28,083 nt of DNA from a virus. Location of the stretch: the IMG/VR virus record IMGVR_UViG_3300014499_000025, positions 1 to 28,083 of that record. One strand, 5' to 3'. Below the pieces are notes generated by a model. It made no database searches. It saw only the letters and a program-made list of their open reading frames with translations, and had not been told where the DNA came from. Of the stretch, positions 3,184 to 20,416 are shown one piece after another. Each line of letters opens with the position of its first letter. Within the stretch, counting starts at the first letter, position 1. The translations under genes were made by a program, and so were the position numbers.

Positions 3184-3507
3184 TCATAACCATTTTGCCT
3201 CGTCCTTTGCGTCATCAGCTTTCGCTCGCCACCATTCATCAAACGAAAGCGGCCAGCCGATTACTCCTTTAGGGATAATCCACTCGTTCTTGAATAGTGC
3301 ATTGACCGCGTCTCTATCTTCCACAGGAATAGGATTTTTGAATCCCTGAATATCCAATACTTCCGCTATCGTTAACGTAGAGGTGACAATTTTTAAGCGC
3401 CCATTATTTGCTTCATCGAATAACTGAGTTATTACATCCGCCCTGCCAACCTCATCCTTTAGCCAAGCCAAAAACGTGCAGGAATCAAAATAAATCACCT
3501 CAGACAT
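3184..3507 (-). CDS. PIN-domain toxin-like protein, C-terminally altered
   Basis: A 107-residue protein. The opening IYFDSCTFLAWLKDE carries the first catalytic aspartate of PIN ribonucleases, and TSTLTIAEVL with its glutamate is the second conserved element. PIN toxins usually have about 130-150 residues and end with a KxxDAIHxA helix followed by a TxD motif. Here the sequence leaves the family after about residue 83 and ends in a different tail, FDEWWRAKADDAKDEAK, without the third acidic site in its normal place. The gene overlaps the upstream chimeric ORF by 8 bp, as PIN toxins overlap their antitoxins. It is probably a truncated and inactive toxin with a substituted tail, although a short active form cannot be excluded. 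Its tail recurs at 6636-6704. Confidence 0.75.
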   Translation of the reverse strand: MSEVIYFDSCTFLAWLKDEVGRADVITQLFDEANNGRLKIVTSTLTIAEVLDIQGFKNPIPVEDRDAVNALFKNEWIIPKGVIGWPLSFDEWWRAKADDAKDEAKWL

Positions 3508-4396
3508 ATTGCTTCAGGATACCCCTCGTCATTTTGTAATCGGATACCCCTTCCGCAGGAACTATTGGAAAGATTTTATCTACCCTTATTGCATAAGGAA
3601 TGCCTTTGCCGGAGTATTTAATCAAGCCCTCTGCTTCTACACGTTGCTCATAGAATTTATATGCGCTGTCAAATACATCTCGCTCAGCAGCAGTACAAAG
3701 AATACGGGCGGAATATAAGGGTTCGATTATGGCAAACTCTGGTGTATCTTCACTATCAAGCACCAATAGTTTTCCTTCAATCGCCCCATATTCAGTAAAT
3801 GCGCCTTCAAGGACTACATTCACATTTCCTTTAATAGTCGCGCCTATATTTGTTGGTTTTTTATTGAACCATGCGCCACGCTCTACAAGAGAGAAAACAG
3901 CCTCTTTTCCTACCGGGCCACGGCCAAGATGTTTGCGGTCTTTCGCATGTTTATTCTTCTCTTTGCCACCAACATACGTCTCATCGGCTTCAACAGTCTT
4001 ACCCTCGCCGCCCATCGGTTCAATGTGCAGAACACGCATTGCTTCGCGCAAGCGATGAGCCATAAACCACGCTGTATTATACTGCACTTCAAGAATGCGG
4101 TGAAGCTGATGCGCTGATATGCCCTTTTTGCTAGAAGCCAAAAGATGCGCAGCCTGTAACCATTTCGTCAAAGGAACATGGCTAGACTCAAATACAGTGC
4201 CAACTTTTACCGTGAATTGCTTGCGGCAGTTATAGCATTTCCACAAACCGGGGCGCGTGGCTTTGCCCTTCAAACGATTAAGGCGTTCTACGCTTCCGCA
4301 ATGCGGGCAATTTGCGCCGTTCGGCCACAAGATACTTTCGAGGTGCAGGATTGCGGCCTCTTCATTGTGGAATTGGGGTTGAGATAATTTACTCAT
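3500..4396 (-). CDS. Chimera: IS1595-type transposase N-terminus fused to PIN-partner (antitoxin-like) C-terminus
   Basis: 298 residues made of two unrelated parts. Residues 1 to about 172 are an IS1595/ISXO2-like transposase: zinc ribbon with C30, C33, C54 and C57, a helix-turn-helix region, and the first catalytic aspartate D138 in VEADETYVGGKEKNKH. The second aspartate and the N..E motif are missing. From about residue 185 to 298 the sequence instead matches the protein usually encoded just upstream of PIN toxins: YGAIEGKL, RVEAEGLIKY and a closing RGIL. The PIN gene follows with an 8-bp overlap. The ORF runs through the junction without a stop, so a fusion protein could be made, with transposase DNA binding joined to an antitoxin C-terminus. 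Transposition activity is lost. The start ATG lacks a strong ribosome site (GAAAGG is 7-12 nt upstream). Confidence 0.75.
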   Translation of the reverse strand: MSKLSQPQFHNEEAAILHLESILWPNGANCPHCGSVERLNRLKGKATRPGLWKCYNCRKQFTVKVGTVFESSHVPLTKWLQAAHLLASSKKGISAHQLHRILEVQYNTAWFMAHRLREAMRVLHIEPMGGEGKTVEADETYVGGKEKNKHAKDRKHLGRGPVGKEAVFSLVERGAWFNKKPTNIGATIKGNVNVVLEGAFTEYGAIEGKLLVLDSEDTPEFAIIEPLYSARILCTAAERDVFDSAYKFYEQRVEAEGLIKYSGKGIPYAIRVDKIFPIVPAEGVSDYKMTRGILKQYV

Positions 4397-5233: not shown

Positions 5234-6493
5234 ATGGCAAGAAAACAGGGGACAAAAAGCGTACCAGCACTGATTAACGATAAGGCAGCTGAAACAGTAA
5301 CGCAACGGGTAGAACTTGTCCTGGTTCACATAGAAAAATCCAAAAAGGGCGATAAGATTTTAGCCACTCTTGGCAATCTTCGCGCCATGCTTAATCATTA
5401 TGGCATTGTATGCCGTTATGATGTTATCAAAAAGCGCCTCATTCATATCATACCGGGCGAAGAGTTCAGCACGGAAAACGAGGAAGAGGCGGCATTGGCC
5501 TGCATCTATTCCTGTATGAAGGAAAATAGAATCCCTGTTGACGGCTATAAGCTTTATCTAGTGCGGATTGCCGATGAAAATCAGTTTAATCCAGTACTTC
5601 AATATGTGCGTTCAAAGCCTTGGGATCGTGTGGATCGGATGCCGGAATTCTGCGCGACAATCGAATCACCGGAAACAGAGGCAAAAAATCTACTTATAAG
5701 GCGATGGATGATAACAGCTATGAGCATGGCTCTATACAATGGCATTGACGGAGCCGGTTGTTTAGTCCTGCAAGGGCCGCCCGATTTAGGTAAGACATGG
5801 TGGGTTAAAAAGCTTGTGCCGCAAGAGATAAGAGAAAACCTGATACGCACGGATGCAACCGTTGATCCCGGTGACAAGGATCAGGTTAGCCAGGTTATAT
5901 CGTATTGGATCGTTGAATTAGGTGAAATAGGCGCGACATTCAGAAAAGCGGAATTACAAGCCCTCAAAGGCTTTATTACCCGCGATCATGATACAATGCG
6001 GCGTCCCTATGGCGAAGGCGATAAACGCTTCCCCAGGCGCACTGCTTTGATTGCCAGCGTGGATCAGTTCATCTACCTGATTGATACGGCTGGCAATCGG
6101 CGCTTCTGGACTATCCCCTGCACAAAGATAAATTCCTATCACGAAATAGACATGCAACAAGTATGGGCACAAGTCCTAAGTATGATTGAGGCGCACGGCG
6201 AAACATGGCGATTAACGCAAGTTGAAAAAGACCATATTAAGCGCATAAATGAAGAACATATGCAGATTGATCCCATCATGGAAATGATACAGGAAAAGTA
6301 TAAATGGGAGGAATTGGCAATGGTTGCGCGCTGGGAGACGGCTACAAAAATTGGTGAAGAAATTGGACTAATAGATCTTGGTCACAGAGAAACACGGCTC
6401 ATAACCGGCCATGTCCTTAAATTAAATGGAGGCCAAAAAAAGCGTACAGGCGATAAACGCTATTTACTGGTTCCTGCTTTGCGTCCCAGCTAA
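5234..6493 (+). CDS. VirE/VapE-family replicative helicase (AAA+ type)
   Basis: 419 residues. The Walker A motif GPPDLGKTWW is at 181-190, Walker B-like WIVELGE at 225-231, an arginine-rich RRTALIAS sensor region at about 268-275, and the family mark GNRRFW at 287-292. This is the ATPase of 'virulence-associated E' phage proteins, which act as replication helicases, often with a primase. The N-terminus lacks a primase (Toprim or AEP) domain and has only an alpha/beta region with a HIIPGEEFS strand. Residues 350-419 form a C-terminal winged-helix-like module (WETATKIGEEIGL ... YLLVPAL); a homologous module is found alone at 9753-10001. The 3' end overlaps the convergent XRE gene by 30 bp. Confidence 0.85.
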   Translation: MARKQGTKSVPALINDKAAETVTQRVELVLVHIEKSKKGDKILATLGNLRAMLNHYGIVCRYDVIKKRLIHIIPGEEFSTENEEEAALACIYSCMKENRIPVDGYKLYLVRIADENQFNPVLQYVRSKPWDRVDRMPEFCATIESPETEAKNLLIRRWMITAMSMALYNGIDGAGCLVLQGPPDLGKTWWVKKLVPQEIRENLIRTDATVDPGDKDQVSQVISYWIVELGEIGATFRKAELQALKGFITRDHDTMRRPYGEGDKRFPRRTALIASVDQFIYLIDTAGNRRFWTIPCTKINSYHEIDMQQVWAQVLSMIEAHGETWRLTQVEKDHIKRINEEHMQIDPIMEMIQEKYKWEELAMVARWETATKIGEEIGLIDLGHRETRLITGHVLKLNGGQKKRTGDKRYLLVPALRPS

Positions 6494-6646
6494 TTGCATA
6501 GCCAGCATCTTGACCGGACGGCTCATATTAATTTTCCCGCGTTCCATCATCGAAACGGCATCCATCGTTATTCCTAGCATGGGCGCAATTTCCGCCTGCT
6601 TTAATCCAAGCCTTTCACGCAATGCCCGTAATTCCTTACCTGTCAT
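6464..6646 (-). CDS. Small XRE-family (Cro/CI-type) transcriptional regulator
   Basis: A 60-residue HTH protein, little more than the DNA-binding domain: KELRALRERLGLKQAEIAPM forms helices 1-2 and GITMDAVSMMERGK the recognition helix and the typical ERGK. The frame is open 17 codons further, but I prefer the ATG at 6646 because the sequence before it codes for another frame (6636-6704) that overlaps it by 11 bp, as in coupled phage genes, and because XRE domains of this kind start MTGKEL. It is a good candidate for a repressor or Cro-like regulator. Its final 30 bp overlap the convergent helicase gene. Confidence 0.8.
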   Translation of the reverse strand: MTGKELRALRERLGLKQAEIAPMLGITMDAVSMMERGKINMSRPVKMLAMQLAGTQSRNQ

Positions 6647-6704
6647 ATTTTGCCTCGTCCTTCGCATCATCAGCCGCATTTCTCCAAAATTCTTCATAAG
6701 TCAT
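6636..6704 (-). CDS. Short frame encoding a tail shared with the PIN protein
   Basis: 22 codons starting MTYEEFWRNAADDAKDEAK. The same peptide, with changes, ends the PIN protein at 3184-3507 (FDEWWRAKADDAKDEAK), and the DNA is also similar. There is no good ribosome site, and the same frame stays open upstream to about 6760 (NPWLTHSRI before the Met), so this is more likely the 3' end of a larger, damaged gene than a free-standing peptide. It overlaps the XRE start by 11 bp, suggesting coupling. Confidence 0.4.
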   Translation of the reverse strand: MTYEEFWRNAADDAKDEAKYDR

Positions 6705-6902: not shown

Positions 6903-6931
6903 TTGACTAACCAAGCGGCATGGGTTATCAT
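6903..6931 (+). promoter_or_regulatory. Transposase promoter
   Basis: TTGACT (6903-6908), a 17-bp spacer and TATCAT (6926-6931), 24 bp before the transposase ATG at 6956 with GGAG at 6947-6950. It probably drives the whole transposase-methyltransferase-endonuclease unit. Confidence 0.6.
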
Positions 6932-6955
6932 AATTCCATAATCAATGGAGACGTT

Positions 6956-7876
6956 ATGAAAACCGAAGCAAAAGACACCTTAGACGTTTTTGGATTTTTC
7001 AAGAAATTCCCCGACGAAAAAACGTGTGAAGATTTTATCATTGCCGCCCGCTGGCCGCGTGGTGTTTATTGCCCGCATTGCGGAAACTATAAGCTGTACC
7101 GCCTCGAAACGCAAAAGCGTTTTAAGTGTGCGGGTTGCCGCAAGCAGTTTTCAGTCCGTACCGGCTCTGTGCTGGCGGAAAGCAAAGTGACGCTGCAACA
7201 GTGGTTACTTGCCGGTTGGCTTCTCACTACTCACCGCAAGGGCTTTTCCAGTGTGCAGCTTGGCAAAACGCTGGGCGTGACGCAAAAGACGGCTTGGTTT
7301 CTCGCTCACCGCATACGCGATGCCTTTAGAGAGGAAGGTGGATTGTTCGACGGCACTGTTGAAGTAGACGAGACATATGTAGGCGGAAAAGAGAAGAATA
7401 AACACGCAAACAAAAAGCTACATGCCGGACGGGGAGCCGTTGGAAAAACCGCCGTCATGGGTATCAAAGAGCGCGGCGGCAAAGTGAAAGCCAAGCCGAT
7501 TAAGAATGCGGACGCTAAGACATTGCAGGGTGAAATCAGGCGGGTTGTAACTCCGGGTGCAACCGTATATACTGACGACCATCGCGGTTATCATGGATTG
7601 CTTGATTATCAGCATGAATCGGTAAAGCATTCCGTAGGTGAATATGTGAGGGGCATGGCTTCTACCAATGGCATAGAGTCCTTTTGGGCACTGCTGAAAA
7701 GAGGCTTATACGGGATTTATCACCAGATGAGCCCGGCGCATCTTCGCCGCTATGTGGATGAGTTTTCCTTCCGCCAGAATACTATCGGTCTCACTGACGA
7801 AGCCACTTTTGCCAAGATGTTCTATAACAGCAACGGTCGCCGTCTCACCTATAAGGAGTTGACCTGTGTCGCGTAA
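6956..7876 (+). CDS. IS1595-family (ISXO2-like) transposase
   Basis: 306 residues, full length for the family. It has an N-terminal zinc ribbon (C39, C42, C58, C61), a helix-turn-helix around residues 97-120, and a DDE-type catalytic domain with D138 (EVDETYVGGKEKNKH), D207 (VYTDDHRGY), H225 and the STNGIESFWALLKRG motif (N238/E241). All expected catalytic elements are present, so it is probably active. The frame is open to a GTG at 6920, but ATG 6956 has a GGAG site 5 nt before it. It overlaps the methyltransferase start by 11 bp. It shares the VDETYVGGKEKNKHA segment with the chimera at 3500-4396 but is otherwise clearly diverged from it. Confidence 0.92.
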   Translation: MKTEAKDTLDVFGFFKKFPDEKTCEDFIIAARWPRGVYCPHCGNYKLYRLETQKRFKCAGCRKQFSVRTGSVLAESKVTLQQWLLAGWLLTTHRKGFSSVQLGKTLGVTQKTAWFLAHRIRDAFREEGGLFDGTVEVDETYVGGKEKNKHANKKLHAGRGAVGKTAVMGIKERGGKVKAKPIKNADAKTLQGEIRRVVTPGATVYTDDHRGYHGLLDYQHESVKHSVGEYVRGMASTNGIESFWALLKRGLYGIYHQMSPAHLRRYVDEFSFRQNTIGLTDEATFAKMFYNSNGRRLTYKELTCVA

Positions 7877-8711
7877 CGCAACGCTCATAGAGCCTATTGA
7901 CGCGAGTTTTGATACCGTAATGCGGGCGATAGTACATGCGCCGGAGAAATTGCCGGAGAGAATCGCAACCCCTTCGCTGGCGCACTGGACGGGCAAAATT
8001 CATTGTATGGACTGCATAAAATTGATGAACGAATTGCCAGCGGGAAGTATAGGCGCAATCGTCACTTCCCCGCCGTACAATATCAAAAACAGCACGGGCA
8101 ATGGCATGAAAGACGGGCGGGGCGGTAAGTGGCCGCAAGCCGCGCTTATTAACGGCTACAAAGACCATGCCGATGATATGCCTTACCCTGAGTATGTCGC
8201 ATGGCAGCGCAAATGCCTTGATGCCATGATGCGCGTATTAAGGCCGGACGGCGCGATATTCTATAATCACAAGTGGCGCGTTCAAAACGGCTTATTGCAG
8301 GACAGGGCGGAAATCATCGCGGGCTTTCCAGTGCGCCAGATTATTATATGGAAGCGCAAGGGCGGTATAAACTTCAATGCAGGGTACTTTTTACCTACCT
8401 ATGAAGTGATTTACCTGATAGCCAAGCCGGACTTTAAGCTGTCTCCCAAAGCAAACGCGCAAGGGGATGTATGGGAGATACCGCAAGCGCGTGACAATAC
8501 ACACCCTGCCCCCTTCCCTATAGAACTGGCGCAACGCTGTATATCGGCAACCCAAGAGGGCGTTGTGCTTGATCCTTTTATGGGAAGTGGTACAACAGCC
8601 CTGGCCGCAGAGATACTTAACAGGGAATGGATAGGCGCTGAATTATCGAGTAACTACTGCAAAATGGCGGAAAAGCGGCTTAAAGAGCATCAAGAAACCA
8701 AGCTGATATAA
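7866..8711 (+). CDS. Type II DNA methyltransferase (N4/N6, beta class)
   Basis: 281 residues; modifies the exocyclic amino group of cytosine (N4) or adenine (N6) in DNA using S-adenosylmethionine. The catalytic motif TSPPYN is at 67-72 and the cofactor-binding motif DPFMGSGTT at 236-244. This order, with the target-recognition region between, is the beta class. Start codon GTG at 7866 is set by AAGGAG 7 nt upstream, inside the transposase gene. The stop overlaps the endonuclease ATG (TAATG), so the pair is coupled. Enzymes paired with MvaI/BcnI-type nucleases are N4-cytosine methyltransferases, which makes that the likelier activity here. It protects the site cut by the next protein. Confidence 0.9.
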   Translation: MSRNATLIEPIDASFDTVMRAIVHAPEKLPERIATPSLAHWTGKIHCMDCIKLMNELPAGSIGAIVTSPPYNIKNSTGNGMKDGRGGKWPQAALINGYKDHADDMPYPEYVAWQRKCLDAMMRVLRPDGAIFYNHKWRVQNGLLQDRAEIIAGFPVRQIIIWKRKGGINFNAGYFLPTYEVIYLIAKPDFKLSPKANAQGDVWEIPQARDNTHPAPFPIELAQRCISATQEGVVLDPFMGSGTTALAAEILNREWIGAELSSNYCKMAEKRLKEHQETKLI

Positions 8712-9355
8712 TGGCACCGCGAAAACTTGTAGGCACTATCCAGCCGCGCACCGGAACCGCGTGTTTTAAGAAAATCGCGGAAATCCTGAAAGCAGGAACA
8801 TGGGAATTTTCTGATGACGGCAAGTATAACGGCAACGGCGCTCCTGGTAGGTACTTAGAGGATTTGCTGGGCGTGAAAGCCAATAATGCCGATTCGCCTG
8901 ACATGGAAGGGTGGGAGATTAAGTTTCACGGCGGTAATTCCTTGCTTACGCTTTTCCATAAAGACCCTGAGCCTAGAGGCATAATCAGGACTATCGTACA
9001 TGACCATGGATGGGATGACGGCAAAGGCCGTATCAGCTTTCGGCATACGATAAGCGGCGAGACTTCACGGGGATTTTATGTGGTGAACGAAGAGGATAGG
9101 ATTGTCATACGCAATCGCCATAAAGATACCGCCGTCCAGCACTGGACGCATAATACTCTGTTTAATGCCTTTGCCGCAAAACTGCGCCGTCTCATAGTGG
9201 TAAGTGGCAGCATGATGAAAAACCCGCGCCGTGTCGTCTATGAAGAAGCTACCGCTTATTGGGAGCCTGACATAAGGGGATTTTCAAAGGCAGTCGCGGA
9301 CGGTCTTTTCTGTGTGGACTTTGACGCACGGACGCAAGGTGGTCGTGGTATATAA
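8711..9355 (+). CDS. Type II restriction endonuclease, MvaI/BcnI family
   Basis: 214 residues. The sequence GNGAPGRYLEDLLGVKANN, then SPDMEGWEIKFHG, is the core of the MvaI/BcnI family: D64 - E69 - K71 gives the metal-binding D-x4-E-x-K set, with the spacing I recall for MvaI (D50, E55, K57). These enzymes cut short CC-GG-centred sites, MvaI as a monomer; the exact site here cannot be read from sequence. It starts inside the methyltransferase stop (TAATG), and its stop codon lies in the right terminal repeat of the transposon, so the C-terminal GRGI is encoded by the element end. It appears complete and therefore potentially active. Confidence 0.85.
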   Translation: MAPRKLVGTIQPRTGTACFKKIAEILKAGTWEFSDDGKYNGNGAPGRYLEDLLGVKANNADSPDMEGWEIKFHGGNSLLTLFHKDPEPRGIIRTIVHDHGWDDGKGRISFRHTISGETSRGFYVVNEEDRIVIRNRHKDTAVQHWTHNTLFNAFAAKLRRLIVVSGSMMKNPRRVVYEEATAYWEPDIRGFSKAVADGLFCVDFDARTQGGRGI

Positions 9356-9360
9356 ATCCC
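9348..9360 (-). repeat. Right terminal inverted repeat of the transposon
   Basis: GTATATAAATCCC is the exact inverse of 6890-6902. It contains the TAA stop of the endonuclease gene (9353-9355). Confidence 0.8.
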
Positions 9361-9369
9361 ATATATTTT

Positions 9370-9792
9370 ATGAAAATACCAGAAAACCAAAGGACAGAAG
9401 TGCTAAAAATGCTGAAAGAGGGAATGCCAGATAATGCCGTTGCTGAATTTTATGGCGTCACCAGACAAACAATCGGAAATATGCGCAGAAAAGCAGGATT
9501 ATATGTAAAATATAAACTGCCGAATAAAGAAATGTGGAAAGAACATCTTAAGGTATCAAAACTAACCGCAAATGCCATATATCATGGCGTCTTAATACCA
9601 GAGCCTTGCGAGATATGCGGGGTATTCGGAAAGAATGATAAGGGAAAGCGCAAGGTCCATGCTCATCATGACGACTATAATAAACCCTTAAGCGTGCGCT
9701 GGCTTTGTGAAAATCATCACAGAGAATGGCATCTGACCAACAATGCCATTCCATGCTCATTCTTGAATCCGTGTCATATATCGAAAATTTGA
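9370..9792 (+). CDS. HTH-HNH-type phage protein (possible homing endonuclease)
   Basis: 140 residues. Residues 5-38 form a resolvase-like helix-turn-helix (DNAVAEFYGVTRQTIGNMRR). Residues 77-120 hold a zinc-bound HNH-like core: CEICG, then KVHAHHDDYNKPLSVRWLC and ENHHREWH. Many phage proteins of this make-up are site-specific or homing nucleases, others are only DNA-binding. It begins 9 bp after the transposon end with no good ribosome site, perhaps because the transposon separated it from its leader. Its end overlaps a remnant of a second VapE-like gene, fitting insertion of a homing-type gene into a replication gene. AT-rich codon use sets it apart from the preceding restriction genes. Confidence 0.75.
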   Translation: MKIPENQRTEVLKMLKEGMPDNAVAEFYGVTRQTIGNMRRKAGLYVKYKLPNKEMWKEHLKVSKLTANAIYHGVLIPEPCEICGVFGKNDKGKRKVHAHHDDYNKPLSVRWLCENHHREWHLTNNAIPCSFLNPCHISKI

Positions 9793-10001
9793 TAAAAGAA
9801 AAATATGACTTTAATTCAAAAGAATATGAATGGAAAACCGCAACAGAAATAGCGGCTGAAATAGGACTGAGAAATATAACTCAGGCCGATACAAGAGCCA
9901 TAGTTAGAGCCTTATCAACTATCTATCAGGATAGGACTCAAATGTTCAAAAATACATCGTATAAAAGATTAATATATGTGCCGTCGATGACTGAGAAATA
10001 A
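9753..10001 (+). pseudogene. 3' remnant of a second VapE-like replication gene
   Basis: The frame (open from 9726; about 80 residues from the Met at 9753) aligns over its length with the C-terminal module of the helicase at 5234-6493: here EKYDF...WKTATEIAAEIGLRN...YKRLIYVP, there EKYKW...WETATKIGEEIGLID...DKRYLLVP. No ATPase domain precedes it. The copies differ at many positions, so this is not a recent duplication. It is likelier the leftover end of an older helicase gene after replacement, with the HNH gene now at its 5' side. A small expressed DNA-binding protein cannot be excluded. Its last codons contain the first TGACTGAG repeat. Confidence 0.65.
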
Positions 10002-10240
10002 ATACTTGGTCTCACTCAGTCACCCCTCAGTCATGCGTTTTTTGAGTGTCACAGCCAGTTACAGAAGATTCGTGACTGAGTGACTGAGTTTTACTAGGAG
10101 CTATATGGATATAGAGTAATGATGGGTGTATTTTTATACTGCCCGTAACAGCCTCAGTCACACAGTCATAATAATGTATATTATTTATATATATCAGTTA
10201 CTTATCTAATGACTAAGTATGTGACTGAGTAGCGACTGAG
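9988..10240. repeat. TGACTGAG repeat cluster, candidate replication origin or operator
   Basis: Seven exact copies of TGACTGAG or its inverse CTCAGTCA: 9988, 10073, 10081 and 10222 (direct) and 10015, 10026 and 10153 (inverted), plus one-mismatch copies at 10210 and 10233. By simple arithmetic less than 0.01 copy is expected in this length by chance. The region is otherwise non-coding (10002-10280) and AT-rich in its second half (10165-10210), the make-up of an iteron-type origin. It follows replication genes, as phage origins often do. The binding protein could be the winged module found in the helicase C-terminus. Confidence 0.6.
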
Positions 10241-10257
10241 TGTGTCGGTTTGATAAA

Positions 10258-10285
10258 TTGACAAAGTTATAAAATACAATATGAT
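10258..10285 (+). promoter_or_regulatory. Promoter, probably giving a leaderless mRNA
   Basis: TTGACA (10258-10263), 16 bp, TATGAT (10280-10285). Transcription would start near 10292, i.e. at the ATG at 10293 of the next gene. The upstream ATG at 10281 lies inside the -10 box and would not be transcribed from here. Confidence 0.55.
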
Positions 10286-10292
10286 AGTGTCT

Positions 10293-10790
10293 ATGAGCGA
10301 CATTTACACAAAAATGGTGAAAGACTTCACGCCACGCCAAAATACAAATGCGCCGGTACAAGAAACACAACAAAGCGCAACTAACACCACATTGAGTGAG
10401 ATGGATAAGGCACTCATTGAGCAATGCCTAGATATGCCGCGTAAAGACCTACAAGGTCTATTACAACGCATTATCCAAGCCGCATGGGGGTATGGTAGCT
10501 TAACGGGAAAAGAACTGCTAGAAATGGCATTAAAAACGAAGGACGAGGCATATGAGGCATTAAAGCTCACCGCATTGACTCTGGCGGTGAATGCTGGCGA
10601 CTGGCGCGAGTTTAACGCCTTGGCGACGTTTTGGGCTGAGAGGGAGAAGGGCAAGCCGATAGGCGCGGCTCCCACGATAAACATAGGCCAAGGCAACGGA
10701 GAGAAGAAAATACAGATAGTATTCATGAACGCAGATGATGTGAAGCGGGAGCGGGAAGGGAAACTGATTGACATGACGCCGAGAGATTAA
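10293..10790 (+). CDS. Phage protein, possibly small terminase subunit
   Basis: 165 residues from ATG 10293 (169 from ATG 10281, which lies in the -10 box of the promoter and is less likely). No ribosome site precedes either start. The protein is mostly helical: LLQRIIQAAWGYGSLTGKELLEMALKT, then DEAYEALKLTALTLAVNAGDW and FNALATFWAEREKGKP. It ends in ININ-like strands and a charged tail KREREGKLIDMTPRD. Helical DNA-packaging initiators have this general layout, and it is flanked by an exact 15-bp direct repeat, but no specific family match is certain. Without a better candidate in the window it may be the small terminase subunit. Confidence 0.6.
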   Translation: MSDIYTKMVKDFTPRQNTNAPVQETQQSATNTTLSEMDKALIEQCLDMPRKDLQGLLQRIIQAAWGYGSLTGKELLEMALKTKDEAYEALKLTALTLAVNAGDWREFNALATFWAEREKGKPIGAAPTINIGQGNGEKKIQIVFMNADDVKREREGKLIDMTPRD

Positions 10791-11079
10791 TATATTAACC
10801 ACTATATGTAGTCGTGAAGAATTATTAAAAATGGGAAGGACGCATAAGTCATTGATATACTACGGTTAATATAATTTAATGTACTTTCCATAATACAGAT
10901 TATAAAATAATAGCAATAAAACCATTACAATACAATATGATAGGAATAGGGAATTGTCCCGCGCATTCCTTCCGTTCTGGGGGAAGAACGCCTAGAAATG
11001 ACCCCCCCGGTATGACCCGCGTAATGGACTTCCGGCATGTCTGTATTAGGCACCACAATTCTGCTTACGGGATTTCCAA
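10791..11079. other. Non-coding stretch with hairpin and 15-bp repeat; candidate packaging region
   Basis: No convincing gene. It contains AATACAATATGATAG at 10929-10943, an exact copy of 10273-10287, then a perfect 6-bp stem CGTTCT/AGAACG around GGGGGA (10973-10990) and a C-run. A 23-codon frame at 11012-11083 overlaps the next start by ATGA but lacks a ribosome site. The setting, after a possible small terminase gene, suggests but does not prove a pac or cos site. Confidence 0.35.
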
Positions 11080-11271
11080 ATGACCCGCACTCCAAAGATA
11101 CACGATGTTCATGGCGAAGGAACTGAGCATTGGAAGTATGGGGATGTCTTCACAGTAGCCCCTGATAGAACTGTAGATAACTGGCGTATGGTTATGGATG
11201 GAGATAGGCTGAGGTTGTTTCGATTGGTTCCATTTCCGAACCCCGAATCCACCTGGGAATCTTTGGTGTGA
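11080..11271 (+). CDS. Hypothetical small protein
   Basis: A 63-residue frame beginning MTRTPKIHDVHGEGTEHW, rich in acidic and aromatic residues, with a strand-like WRMVMDGDRLRLFRLVP. No family recognised. The ribosome site is weak (ACGGG 11 nt before ATG). It is supported mainly by being the only open frame in the interval and by codon use that looks coding. Confidence 0.45.
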   Translation: MTRTPKIHDVHGEGTEHWKYGDVFTVAPDRTVDNWRMVMDGDRLRLFRLVPFPNPESTWESLV

Positions 11272-11345
11272 CAATGCCTATTGAATTTGGTAAATAATTT
11301 AGAAACCGTTTTTATTTTGCGGCAATTTTTTGAGATGGGGGAGGT

Positions 11346-11537
11346 ATGGCTGAGCGTTCATTGAACATAATCGGTGCCGGTTCCGGCGGTGGGATGACGA
11401 GCGAGGAGGCGGATTTGTTTAAGAAGTTGAAGGAAGAGAACGCGAAGTTGGGGAAGCCGTGGGAGCATATAACTGAGAAGCCTGCGATGTTTGAGCGGAG
11501 GGGGACGTATAATCCTGTGACTGGGGAGGTGGAGTGA
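11346..11537 (+). CDS. Small phage protein with glycine-rich N-terminus
   Basis: 63 residues. A strong GGGGGAGG ribosome site lies directly before the ATG. The N-terminus has a flexible GAGSGGG segment followed by a charged helix (SEEADLFKKLKEENAKL) and a C-terminal YNPVTGEVE. It overlaps the next gene by a GTGA junction. Function unknown; small proteins of this kind are common upstream of terminase genes. Confidence 0.65.
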   Translation: MAERSLNIIGAGSGGGMTSEEADLFKKLKEENAKLGKPWEHITEKPAMFERRGTYNPVTGEVE

Positions 11538-11689
11538 TTATAGAAGATAAGAATTATTTGGAAAGCAAATATGTGGAGCATGTAGCGCGAGCGATATGCA
11601 GGGCGGATCGTTATGATCCGGATTCGGATTGGGAAATCTACACGGATCACGCCGTTGCCGCTATCGAAGCAATTAATGAGGTGGAATAG
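11534..11689 (+). CDS. Small hypothetical phage protein (51 residues)
   Basis: An ORF below usual length limits. GTG at 11534 overlaps the stop of the previous gene (GTGA), with GGGGAGG as ribosome site. The protein YVEHVARAICRADRYDPDSDW, then DHAVAAIEAI, is a helical pattern seen in small phage proteins. Its stop TAG shares a base with the next GTG start at 11689, so three genes are tightly coupled. Confidence 0.65.
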   Translation: MIIEDKNYLESKYVEHVARAICRADRYDPDSDWEIYTDHAVAAIEAINEVE

Positions 11690-12054
11690 TGATTAAGCCA
11701 TCAGAAAGCCTTGTAAATAAAAAGGCTGTAGCGATATTTGGAGGTAGAATAACTGATAGGGAGTATGACGAAAATCTTCTTTGGAAAGAAATGGTTTGTC
11801 TTCTGGATAATGTTTTTAAGCCTGATGGAGGGTATGCGGTTATAGAAAAACAACTGTTTGTAAAACGCCTCTATAAAGTTATTGAAGAAAATAAGGAAGA
11901 TGGGCATCTTTATGGAATTTCATATCGCGCAGTGAATAAGGCGGTAGAGATTGTTTTGCCTTTTGGGTGGTGGGGAAGGCGCGGCAAGGATTTTACTGAT
12001 TTAAGCAATGAGTATCTTTTGCCTGTTGCTATGCAATTTGAGAGGACGGAATAA
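11689..12054 (+). CDS. Hypothetical phage protein
   Basis: 121 residues from a GTG that overlaps the previous stop; the ribosome site GAGGTGGA is inside the upstream gene. No domain recognised. The sequence mixes helices (WKEMVCLLDNVF, KRLYKVIEENKEDG) with LPFGWWGRRGKDF. The stop overlaps the next ATG (TAATG). AT-rich codon use compared with the neighbouring virion genes. Confidence 0.6.
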   Translation: MIKPSESLVNKKAVAIFGGRITDREYDENLLWKEMVCLLDNVFKPDGGYAVIEKQLFVKRLYKVIEENKEDGHLYGISYRAVNKAVEIVLPFGWWGRRGKDFTDLSNEYLLPVAMQFERTE

Positions 12055-12605
12055 TGGTCTTTGATTATTGGAATTCACGCGCCAGACTCAATGCCGATGG
12101 TCACGATGAGAGCCAGTATCTTCCGAAGATATTAAATCCGGTTTCGGGGAAATGGGAAGAACCCCCGCCTGTGAATGCCTACCGTGCTGCTAAAGGAGAT
12201 ATACGGCGCAACGATGATGATAAGATTGAGTCTGCGACATGGCTGCCGCGCATTATGTTTTTGGGTCGGCGCATTGAGAAAGAGCATTATGACATGGCTG
12301 TGGTGGTGGAGTGCGTGTGGTTATCGGCAAAGAAGACTCTTGGCATCCTTGATTTAAGGGGGAAGCTCTTCGACAAAGTACCGGAGCTGGGGACGAATGT
12401 TGATGTTGATGCTTTTTTAGAGATGCACCGCACGATGGCGCGACCGGAATTGGAAGCGGTTCTATGGTTTGTGTCGTTTTATATAAGGGCGAGTAGTGCC
12501 GCATTGCCACTTGAAAGGCTCGGTGTTATCCTGCATGGACTTGAGAATGCACAAAATATTATTGACAATTGTAAACGCAAGCGTAAAGTAGCGTCATACA
12601 CCTAG
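12054..12605 (+). CDS. Hypothetical phage protein
   Basis: 183 residues; start ATG shares a base with the preceding stop (TAATG). The N-terminus is acidic and proline-rich (NPVSGKWEEPPPVNAYR), and the C-terminal half is helical (FLEMHRTMARPELEAVLWFVSFYIRA). No family recognised. It is the last gene of this operon: an intrinsic terminator follows 23 bp after the stop. Confidence 0.65.
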   Translation: MVFDYWNSRARLNADGHDESQYLPKILNPVSGKWEEPPPVNAYRAAKGDIRRNDDDKIESATWLPRIMFLGRRIEKEHYDMAVVVECVWLSAKKTLGILDLRGKLFDKVPELGTNVDVDAFLEMHRTMARPELEAVLWFVSFYIRASSAALPLERLGVILHGLENAQNIIDNCKRKRKVASYT

Positions 12606-12669: not shown

Positions 12670-12744
12670 TGCGGGATAGTTCAGAAGTAGAACGCTCGGC
12701 TCATACCCGATAGGTCGGCAGTGCAACTCTGTCTCCCGCTACCA
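12670..12744 (+). tRNA. tRNA with CAT anticodon (Met or lysidine-type Ile)
   Basis: A full cloverleaf can be drawn: acceptor TGCGGGA/TCCCGCT (first pair T-T mismatched, six good pairs), TA at positions 8-9, D stem GTTC/GAAC, anticodon arm CTCGG-CTCATAC-CCGAT (four pairs) with anticodon CAT, variable loop AGGTC, T arm GGCAG-TGCAACT-CTGTC, discriminator A and encoded CCA. The D loop AGAAGTA lacks the usual GG, and the T loop reads TGCAACT rather than TTC-, so it is divergent but probably functional. It is a phage-borne tRNA standing between the terminator and the virion operon. Confidence 0.75.
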
Positions 12745-19711: not shown

Positions 19712-20416
19712 TCAATCCGAGAGTGCCTTATCAGGTAGGCATTTTTCCTGAGATTCTAATTGTTTGGCTTTACGTTTTACCCAAGCTGCTTTTCTGGATT
19801 CAGATTGCTGTTTGCGATAATTTTCATCTTGCCAGTTTGCCTTTCTTTTAGTTGATTGTGTTTGTCTGTGTTCTTCATTTTTCCACATTTTCTTGAACGC
19901 AGTGGATTTTTTTTCTTTATATTCAGTAGATTCCATAGCCTTTTTGAGGGATATGGATCGACGTTTCTGTAACTCAGGATCGGCACAAGCGGCTTGATGA
20001 GATATTCGTCTACGTTCTCTAAATTCAGGGTCTTGCCAAAGTTTTTTGCGAATAATAGATAATTTTTCCTTGGTTTCTTTTGAGGGGGTTGTGCCAGATT
20101 TTGCTGCTTCCGTCAAATTGTAGCTATTAGGGATTACTGCCAATAATTTTATTTCTGCTGCATTTAAAGCGACTTGTAATTGATCTTTTGGAACAAGAGA
20201 AAGATCAACGGCAACCTTAAATACAAAGGCTTTTTCGCCATATTTATTCCAAGCCCTTTGCAGATGAGAATTTCTATGAGCATTCTTGCGTAAGTGCCAA
20301 TGATGGCTATGCCACCTTCGCCTTATGTTAATCGTTTGCCCGATATAGATTTTCCCAGAAATAGTATTGGTGATCGTATAAATACCGGGAAAATTTAATC
20401 CGCTATTTGCAGTCAT
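19712..20416 (-). CDS. GIY-YIG homing endonuclease with 17-residue repeats
   Basis: 234 residues. The GIY-YIG nuclease domain spans about residues 10-95: GIYTITNTISGKIYIGQT with the GIY and YIG triads, R32-R34 region, and H/N-rich HSHHWHLRKNAHRNSHLQRAWNKYG. Residues 121-222 consist of six 17-residue units (patterns ..RKKLWQDPEFRERRR, ..KKAMESTEYKEKKS, ..RKANWQDENYRKQQS), resembling NUMOD-type DNA-binding repeats but longer than usual. The gene is antisense to the virion operon, between scaffold and coat, as expected for a free-standing mobile endonuclease. AT-rich codon use marks it as foreign. Confidence 0.88.
   Translation of the reverse strand: MTANSGLNFPGIYTITNTISGKIYIGQTINIRRRWHSHHWHLRKNAHRNSHLQRAWNKYGEKAFVFKVAVDLSLVPKDQLQVALNAAEIKLLAVIPNSYNLTEAAKSGTTPSKETKEKLSIIRKKLWQDPEFRERRRISHQAACADPELQKRRSISLKKAMESTEYKEKKSTAFKKMWKNEEHRQTQSTKRKANWQDENYRKQQSESRKAAWVKRKAKQLESQEKCLPDKALSD

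Follow-up and report, generated by a model that had tools for sequence, protein, structure and literature searches.

The present study describes, in a phage contig, a compact array of short repeats (positions 9988-10240) that, judged from its sequence, is very probably the replication origin of the phage, or the initiator-binding core of that origin, of the VapE/SaPI-Rep kind. The window, that is, the whole stretch of 28,083 nucleotides analysed here, is a linear IMG/VR record (IMGVR_UViG_3300014499_000025) encoding a terminase large subunit, a portal and a major head protein. The presence of these genes on a linear record identifies the window as a partial tailed-phage genome. The array itself is plain in the window, its block order is common to two other arrays adjacent to vapE, and arrays of this kind are generally associated with vapE.

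Seven exact copies of TGACTGAG in mixed orientation lie within 9988-10229 (starts and strands 9988+, 10015−, 10026−, 10073+, 10081+, 10153− and 10222+), and none occurs elsewhere in the 28,083 bases, against a mean of 0.40 and a maximum of 2 in 100 dinucleotide shuffles. This agrees with an earlier note on this DNA, which had reported one cluster of seven exact repeats in both orientations with a tandem pair at 10073-10088. The same note had counted two more copies with one mismatch; the actual number is four (10011−, overlapping 10015; 10161−; 10210+; 10233+), and these extend the array to eleven sites over 250 bp. The iterons are 8-10 bp in length, and their most frequent form in the window is GTGACTGAGT. 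With spacers in parentheses (bp), the geometry reads −− (39) ++ (64) −− (41, 88% AT) +++, and comprises the following features:

9988-10240, no strand: whole iteron array, putative origin core (exact and one-mismatch TGACTGAG copies, geometry)
9988-9995, plus strand: single exact iteron within the final codons of the open frame for the VapE C-terminus
10011-10033, minus strand: block A, iterons at 10015 and 10026, with the one-mismatch overlapping copy at 10011
10034-10072, no strand: spacer A-B, 39 bp (40 in L008, 39 in L027, from array comparison)
10073-10088, plus strand: block B, tandem pair of exact iterons
10089-10152, no strand: central spacer, 64 bp, 64% AT
10153-10168, minus strand: block C, iteron 10153 and the one-mismatch copy 10161
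10169-10209, no strand: spacer C-D, 41 bp, probable DNA unwinding element from its AT content (88%)
10210-10240, plus strand: block D, copies at 10210 (one mismatch), 10222 (exact) and 10233 (one mismatch), in steps of 12 and 11 bp

AT-rich DNA had been placed downstream of the repeats; it is indeed present, but as spacer C-D inside the array, with repeats on both sides. The DNA of 9985-10245 folds more strongly than its shuffles (z −3.5), as DNA with inverted repeats should. An Rfam search gave no match, and phage records, searched with the array at the nucleotide level, yielded a single chance match (E 0.9).

The TGACTGAG iteron recurs, in the window's block order and directly after primase-vapE genes, in two uncultured phages, L008 and L027. 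The former, found by a scan for the tandem-pair pattern, carries seven exact copies and three TGACCGAG variants starting about 50 bp after the primase-vapE stop; the latter, found by a VapE profile search, has its array in the equivalent position, made up of six exact copies plus one variant. With signs set to one convention, the geometry is − (40) ++ (46) −− (30) ++++ in L008 and − (39) + (87) −− (27) +++ in L027. Both were also recovered by a protein-blind scan for three nearby direct copies, which picked up 37 stretches of viral and at least 117 of cellular DNA. L008 and L027 aside, stretches with at least four TGACTGAG copies in 400 bp are nearly all same-strand tandem, a few having one opposite copy, and VapE was found at none of these loci. 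When 2.9 million contigs were scanned for the C-D arrangement (−− spacer +), those of L008 and L027 were the only hits. A VapE search of genome contigs confirmed no case.

These two phages bear on whether the array could instead be a packaging site (cos/pac), where the repeats would be bound by a small terminase, encoded perhaps by ORF 10281 downstream, much like the R sites upstream of lambda Nu1. The array does lie just upstream of ORF 10281-10790, and a weak relative of this frame (26% identity) stands just before terL in another phage contig, L009. However, ORF 10281 matches no terminase family, and its relatives came down to one contig, L002, which has no repeats. A cos/pac site should keep its adjacency to the small terminase gene; in L008 and L027 the array lies between vapE and a ParB-methyltransferase gene, and the small terminase is encoded separately, further on. 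On small plasmids without annotated packaging genes, vapE is also followed by arrays arranged in the same way. Since the adjacency is lost and the architecture is shared with plasmids, we consider a packaging site very unlikely.

Support for an origin tied to a VapE-type gene, as the earlier note had proposed, comes from the same repeat and order after vapE in L008 and L027 and from lineage-specific repeats after vapE in most relatives. With the vapE stop as the common reference point, 16 of 26 loci, not all of them independent, have their densest mixed-orientation 8-mer cluster starting between −100 and +350 bp of it, compared with an expectation of about 7% for each locus (p 8e-13). Repeats near vapE in relatives, which had been named as a check, are thus found; the vapE slot lacks the strictly best cluster in 10 of the 26. 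In three loci (L012, L015 and L026), a mixed-orientation array lies about 2.1 kb downstream. The letters of the iteron vary by lineage: AGGTGTCA in 9-kb plasmids of E. coli and Salmonella, TCCCACCA in a Stutzerimonas plasmid, AGGGACAC in Roseomonas, and AGGGTAAT and GGGGTAAC in uncultured viruses. Plasmids of 8-10 kb are among the carriers of vapE-linked arrays.

Across lineages, it is the geometry that is conserved and not the iteron sequence, namely alternating inverted blocks with a preferred spacer of about 40 bp. In 25 arrays, orientation switches across 55 of the 62 spacers of 22-130 bp (permuted mean 32), and steps within blocks keep orientation in 93 of 124 cases; neither value was reached in any of 20,000 permutations of orientation made within arrays. 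With one array per iteron type, alternation holds in 42 of 44 cases (0 of 20,000 permutations), and 21 of 68 spacers fall at 36-42 bp compared with 4.4 under a uniform spread. The dyad symmetry of single arrays is not significant, and the claim therefore rests on the pooled orientation test. L026, whose VapE is helicase-only, has its array about 2.1-2.2 kb from vapE, with the iteron GTAGATGAGT and the geometry of the window: −− (41) + (54) − (42) ++ under the same sign convention. The last five letters of GTAGATGAGT, TGAGT, are common to the window form GTGACTGAGT. The AT-rich C-D spacer occurs in L008, L027 and L026 too.

The genes around the array, and a promoter next to it, are as follows:

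5234-6493, plus strand: intact VapE-family helicase without a primase domain (Pfam PF05272, E 4.5e-41; PDB 7pds, E 2.2e-18)
6464-6697, minus strand: helix-turn-helix (HTH) gene
7866-9792, plus strand: DNA methyltransferase, MvaI/BcnI-type endonuclease and HNH endonuclease, between intact vapE and the array
9753-10001, plus strand: VapE C-terminal remnant, 82 predicted aa (frame open from 9711, ATGs at 9726 and 9753; VapE HMM match, winged-helix model)
10258-10285, plus strand: sigma-70-like promoter (11/12, consensus match only) just 3′ of the array, for the gene at 10281/10293

This promoter, together with the HTH gene at 6464-6697, is what an operator array would call for, in which a phage repressor or activator binds the repeats and acts on 10258-10285. 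Against it, eleven sites in 250 bp, in alternating blocks with spacers of 39-41 bp, match the vapE-linked arrays of many replicons whose downstream genes differ, and a plain operator leaves the link to vapE across replicons unexplained. We regard it as extremely improbable, although the iterons could control the adjacent promoter alongside an origin function.

The earlier note had placed the start of the first repeat within the final codons of a VapE remnant, and this repeat does overlap the end of ORF 9726-10001. The frame 9711-9998 matches positions 307-379 of a VapE-protein HMM, that is, its C-terminal end (E about 8e-9). Thus, the VapE identity of what had been called an older replication gene stands, whereas "older" is a presumption. 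The AlphaFold model of the remnant, made with sequence rows from the window and IMG/VR only, is a compact helix-strand domain (pLDDT 85.7), for which Foldseek listed winged-helix proteins (CodY C-terminus, F-112, LP1413) among weak matches, none of them significant. A protein search in IMG/VR found no relative of the remnant. Over short stretches, the remnant shares 36-43% identity with the VapE C-termini of L009 and L008, and it is less similar to that of the intact VapE of its own phage (23 of 67 residues identical). Because the intact C-terminus differs from the remnant, the intact VapE is no more than a candidate binder of TGACTGAG; judged from the sequences, either it or the remnant may recognise the array.

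The remnant lies directly before the array and the intact vapE 3.5 kb from it. Such an arrangement raises the question of a dead leftover: an earlier vapE would have been replaced, the array and the C-terminal fragment being what is left of it, and the intact VapE would now start replication at an origin beyond this contig. This would fit with the distance to intact vapE, with the incompleteness of the contig, and with L009, the closest relative of the intact VapE, in which no convincing array was found after vapE or elsewhere in the 18.6 kb examined. On the other hand, an array in decay would not be expected to retain seven exact copies along with its block order and spacers, the window contig has no second mixed-orientation cluster of the sort, and in L026, where VapE is similar and likewise helicase-only, the array too is separate from vapE. 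A relic is therefore, in our estimate, clearly unlikely, and the window origin is most likely displaced from its helicase gene yet in use. Relatives without repeats, which the earlier note had held to speak against an origin, exist in part: L009 has no array after the gene, but L026 has one 2.2 kb away with a related iteron and the same geometry. Repeats of L009 at 12059-12270 (the long TGTATGTYTAGTTGACA and GTAAGCGAGACATRCAT) were considered as iterons and rejected, as they precede a small HTH gene and are probably its operators.

If the array is an origin, the winged-helix C-terminal domain of a VapE-family helicase would bind the TGACTGAG iterons, and the four blocks of alternating orientation would hold helicase oligomers, probably two hexamers. 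By analogy with known systems, the TGACTGAG blocks in the window may position VapE oligomers so that the 88% AT spacer at 10169-10209 melts and the helicase loads. At some stage, the origin would have become separated from the intact helicase gene, with the VapE C-terminal remnant left directly before it. A more ambitious proposal is that one origin blueprint is common to the VapE helicases found in phages, in satellites and in small plasmids: inverted iteron blocks, set about 40 bp apart, recur on either side of a centre, and the geometry is kept even as the letters of the iteron change along with the C-terminal domain. In addition, the origin-binding domain in the window would have split off as a stand-alone 82-aa protein recruiting the helicase encoded 3.5 kb away. 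We put this combination forward tentatively and hold it to be rather improbable.

Origins of this type are already known from SaPIs and other PICIs. In SaPIbov1, SaPI5 and EcCICFT073, the iterons lie immediately 3′ of the initiator helicase gene, as two sets around AT-rich DNA (PMC6092414), and they are recognised by the C-terminal domain of the initiator (PMC7581432). The window likewise encodes a Rep/VapE-type helicase, matching PF05272 and the solved VapE-like protein 7pds, and its repeat sets (blocks A, B and C on one side, D on the other) flank an AT tract. As for position, the array lies immediately 3′ of vapE in L008 and L027, and in the window immediately 3′ of the C-terminal remnant but not of the intact vapE, which is 3.5 kb away. 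The iteron is TGACTGAG rather than GGTAGA. The phage terL, portal and major head genes also set the window apart; given these genes, its assignment as a phage-inducible chromosomal island, a satellite that depends on a helper and lacks a complete structural gene set, was rejected. The origin of the E. coli PICI EcCICFT073, whose deletion lowers plasmid maintenance (PMC6092414), has the geometry −− (40) + (16) −−− (25) ++ (16) − (40) ++ for GGTAGA. Its two 40-bp inverted spacers show this spacing in an origin whose function has been tested and whose helicase is of the D5 type.

The SCCmec Cch2 origin works with a self-loading helicase whose C-terminal domain binds repeats located downstream (PMC7581432). 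The window is similar in having repeats downstream of a VapE-type sequence, for which we propose C-terminal domain binding; Cch2, unlike the window, has only three short iterons, and its helicase belongs to the D5/Primase_Cterm family. Like the window, classical iteron plasmids and the SGI1 oriV combine short repeats with AT-rich DNA and a neighbouring initiator gene (PMC7433901), but their repeats are direct, of 17-19 bp, and accompanied by a DnaA box. A classical DnaA-dependent origin of the RepA/pi type (17-22 bp direct iterons and a DnaA box) is not supported, as the short window repeats run in both orientations and no DnaA box matched within 9988-10240, even with one mismatch.

No paper joining VapE with iterons turned up in the library searched, which covers few subscription journals, and, as far as those papers go, this origin type seems not to have been described before from full-size phages or small plasmids. 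The comparison of loci extends it to full-size tailed phages and small plasmids from Pseudomonadota and Bacillota and yields a geometric rule, in which blocks alternate and the spacer is near 40 bp. With this rule, origins of uncultured phages can be predicted from sequence, and helicase assembly at the origin becomes directly testable through defined changes of iterons and spacers.

Several further observations were made. GC skew, which the earlier note had suggested computing, is uninformative for the origin as the contig is partial; it jumps to 0.22-0.32 at 10501-12500, just downstream of the array, which an origin or gene composition could explain. The contig contains two IS1595-family transposase genes (3500-4396, minus strand; 6920-7876, plus strand), the second overlapping the start of the methyltransferase gene at 7866. 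This phage-borne methyltransferase adjoins the MvaI/BcnI-type restriction endonuclease (7866-9355), and its DNA is 72% identical over 690 bp to the methyltransferase of Methanosarcina virus MetMV. A tRNA-Met (cat) gene lies at 12670-12744, between the replication and packaging regions, and an ORF in the head gene region (19712-20416, minus strand) resembles, by eye, a GIY-YIG homing endonuclease. The 786-aa terL ORF of L009 (13599-15959) matches terL families at 536-770 and an HNH endonuclease family at 368-455, which suggests, from the sequence, an intein or inserted homing endonuclease. Directly 3′ of the putative origin, L008 (11140-12378) and L027 (2922-4217) each carry a gene that fuses ParB-N to a DNA methyltransferase.
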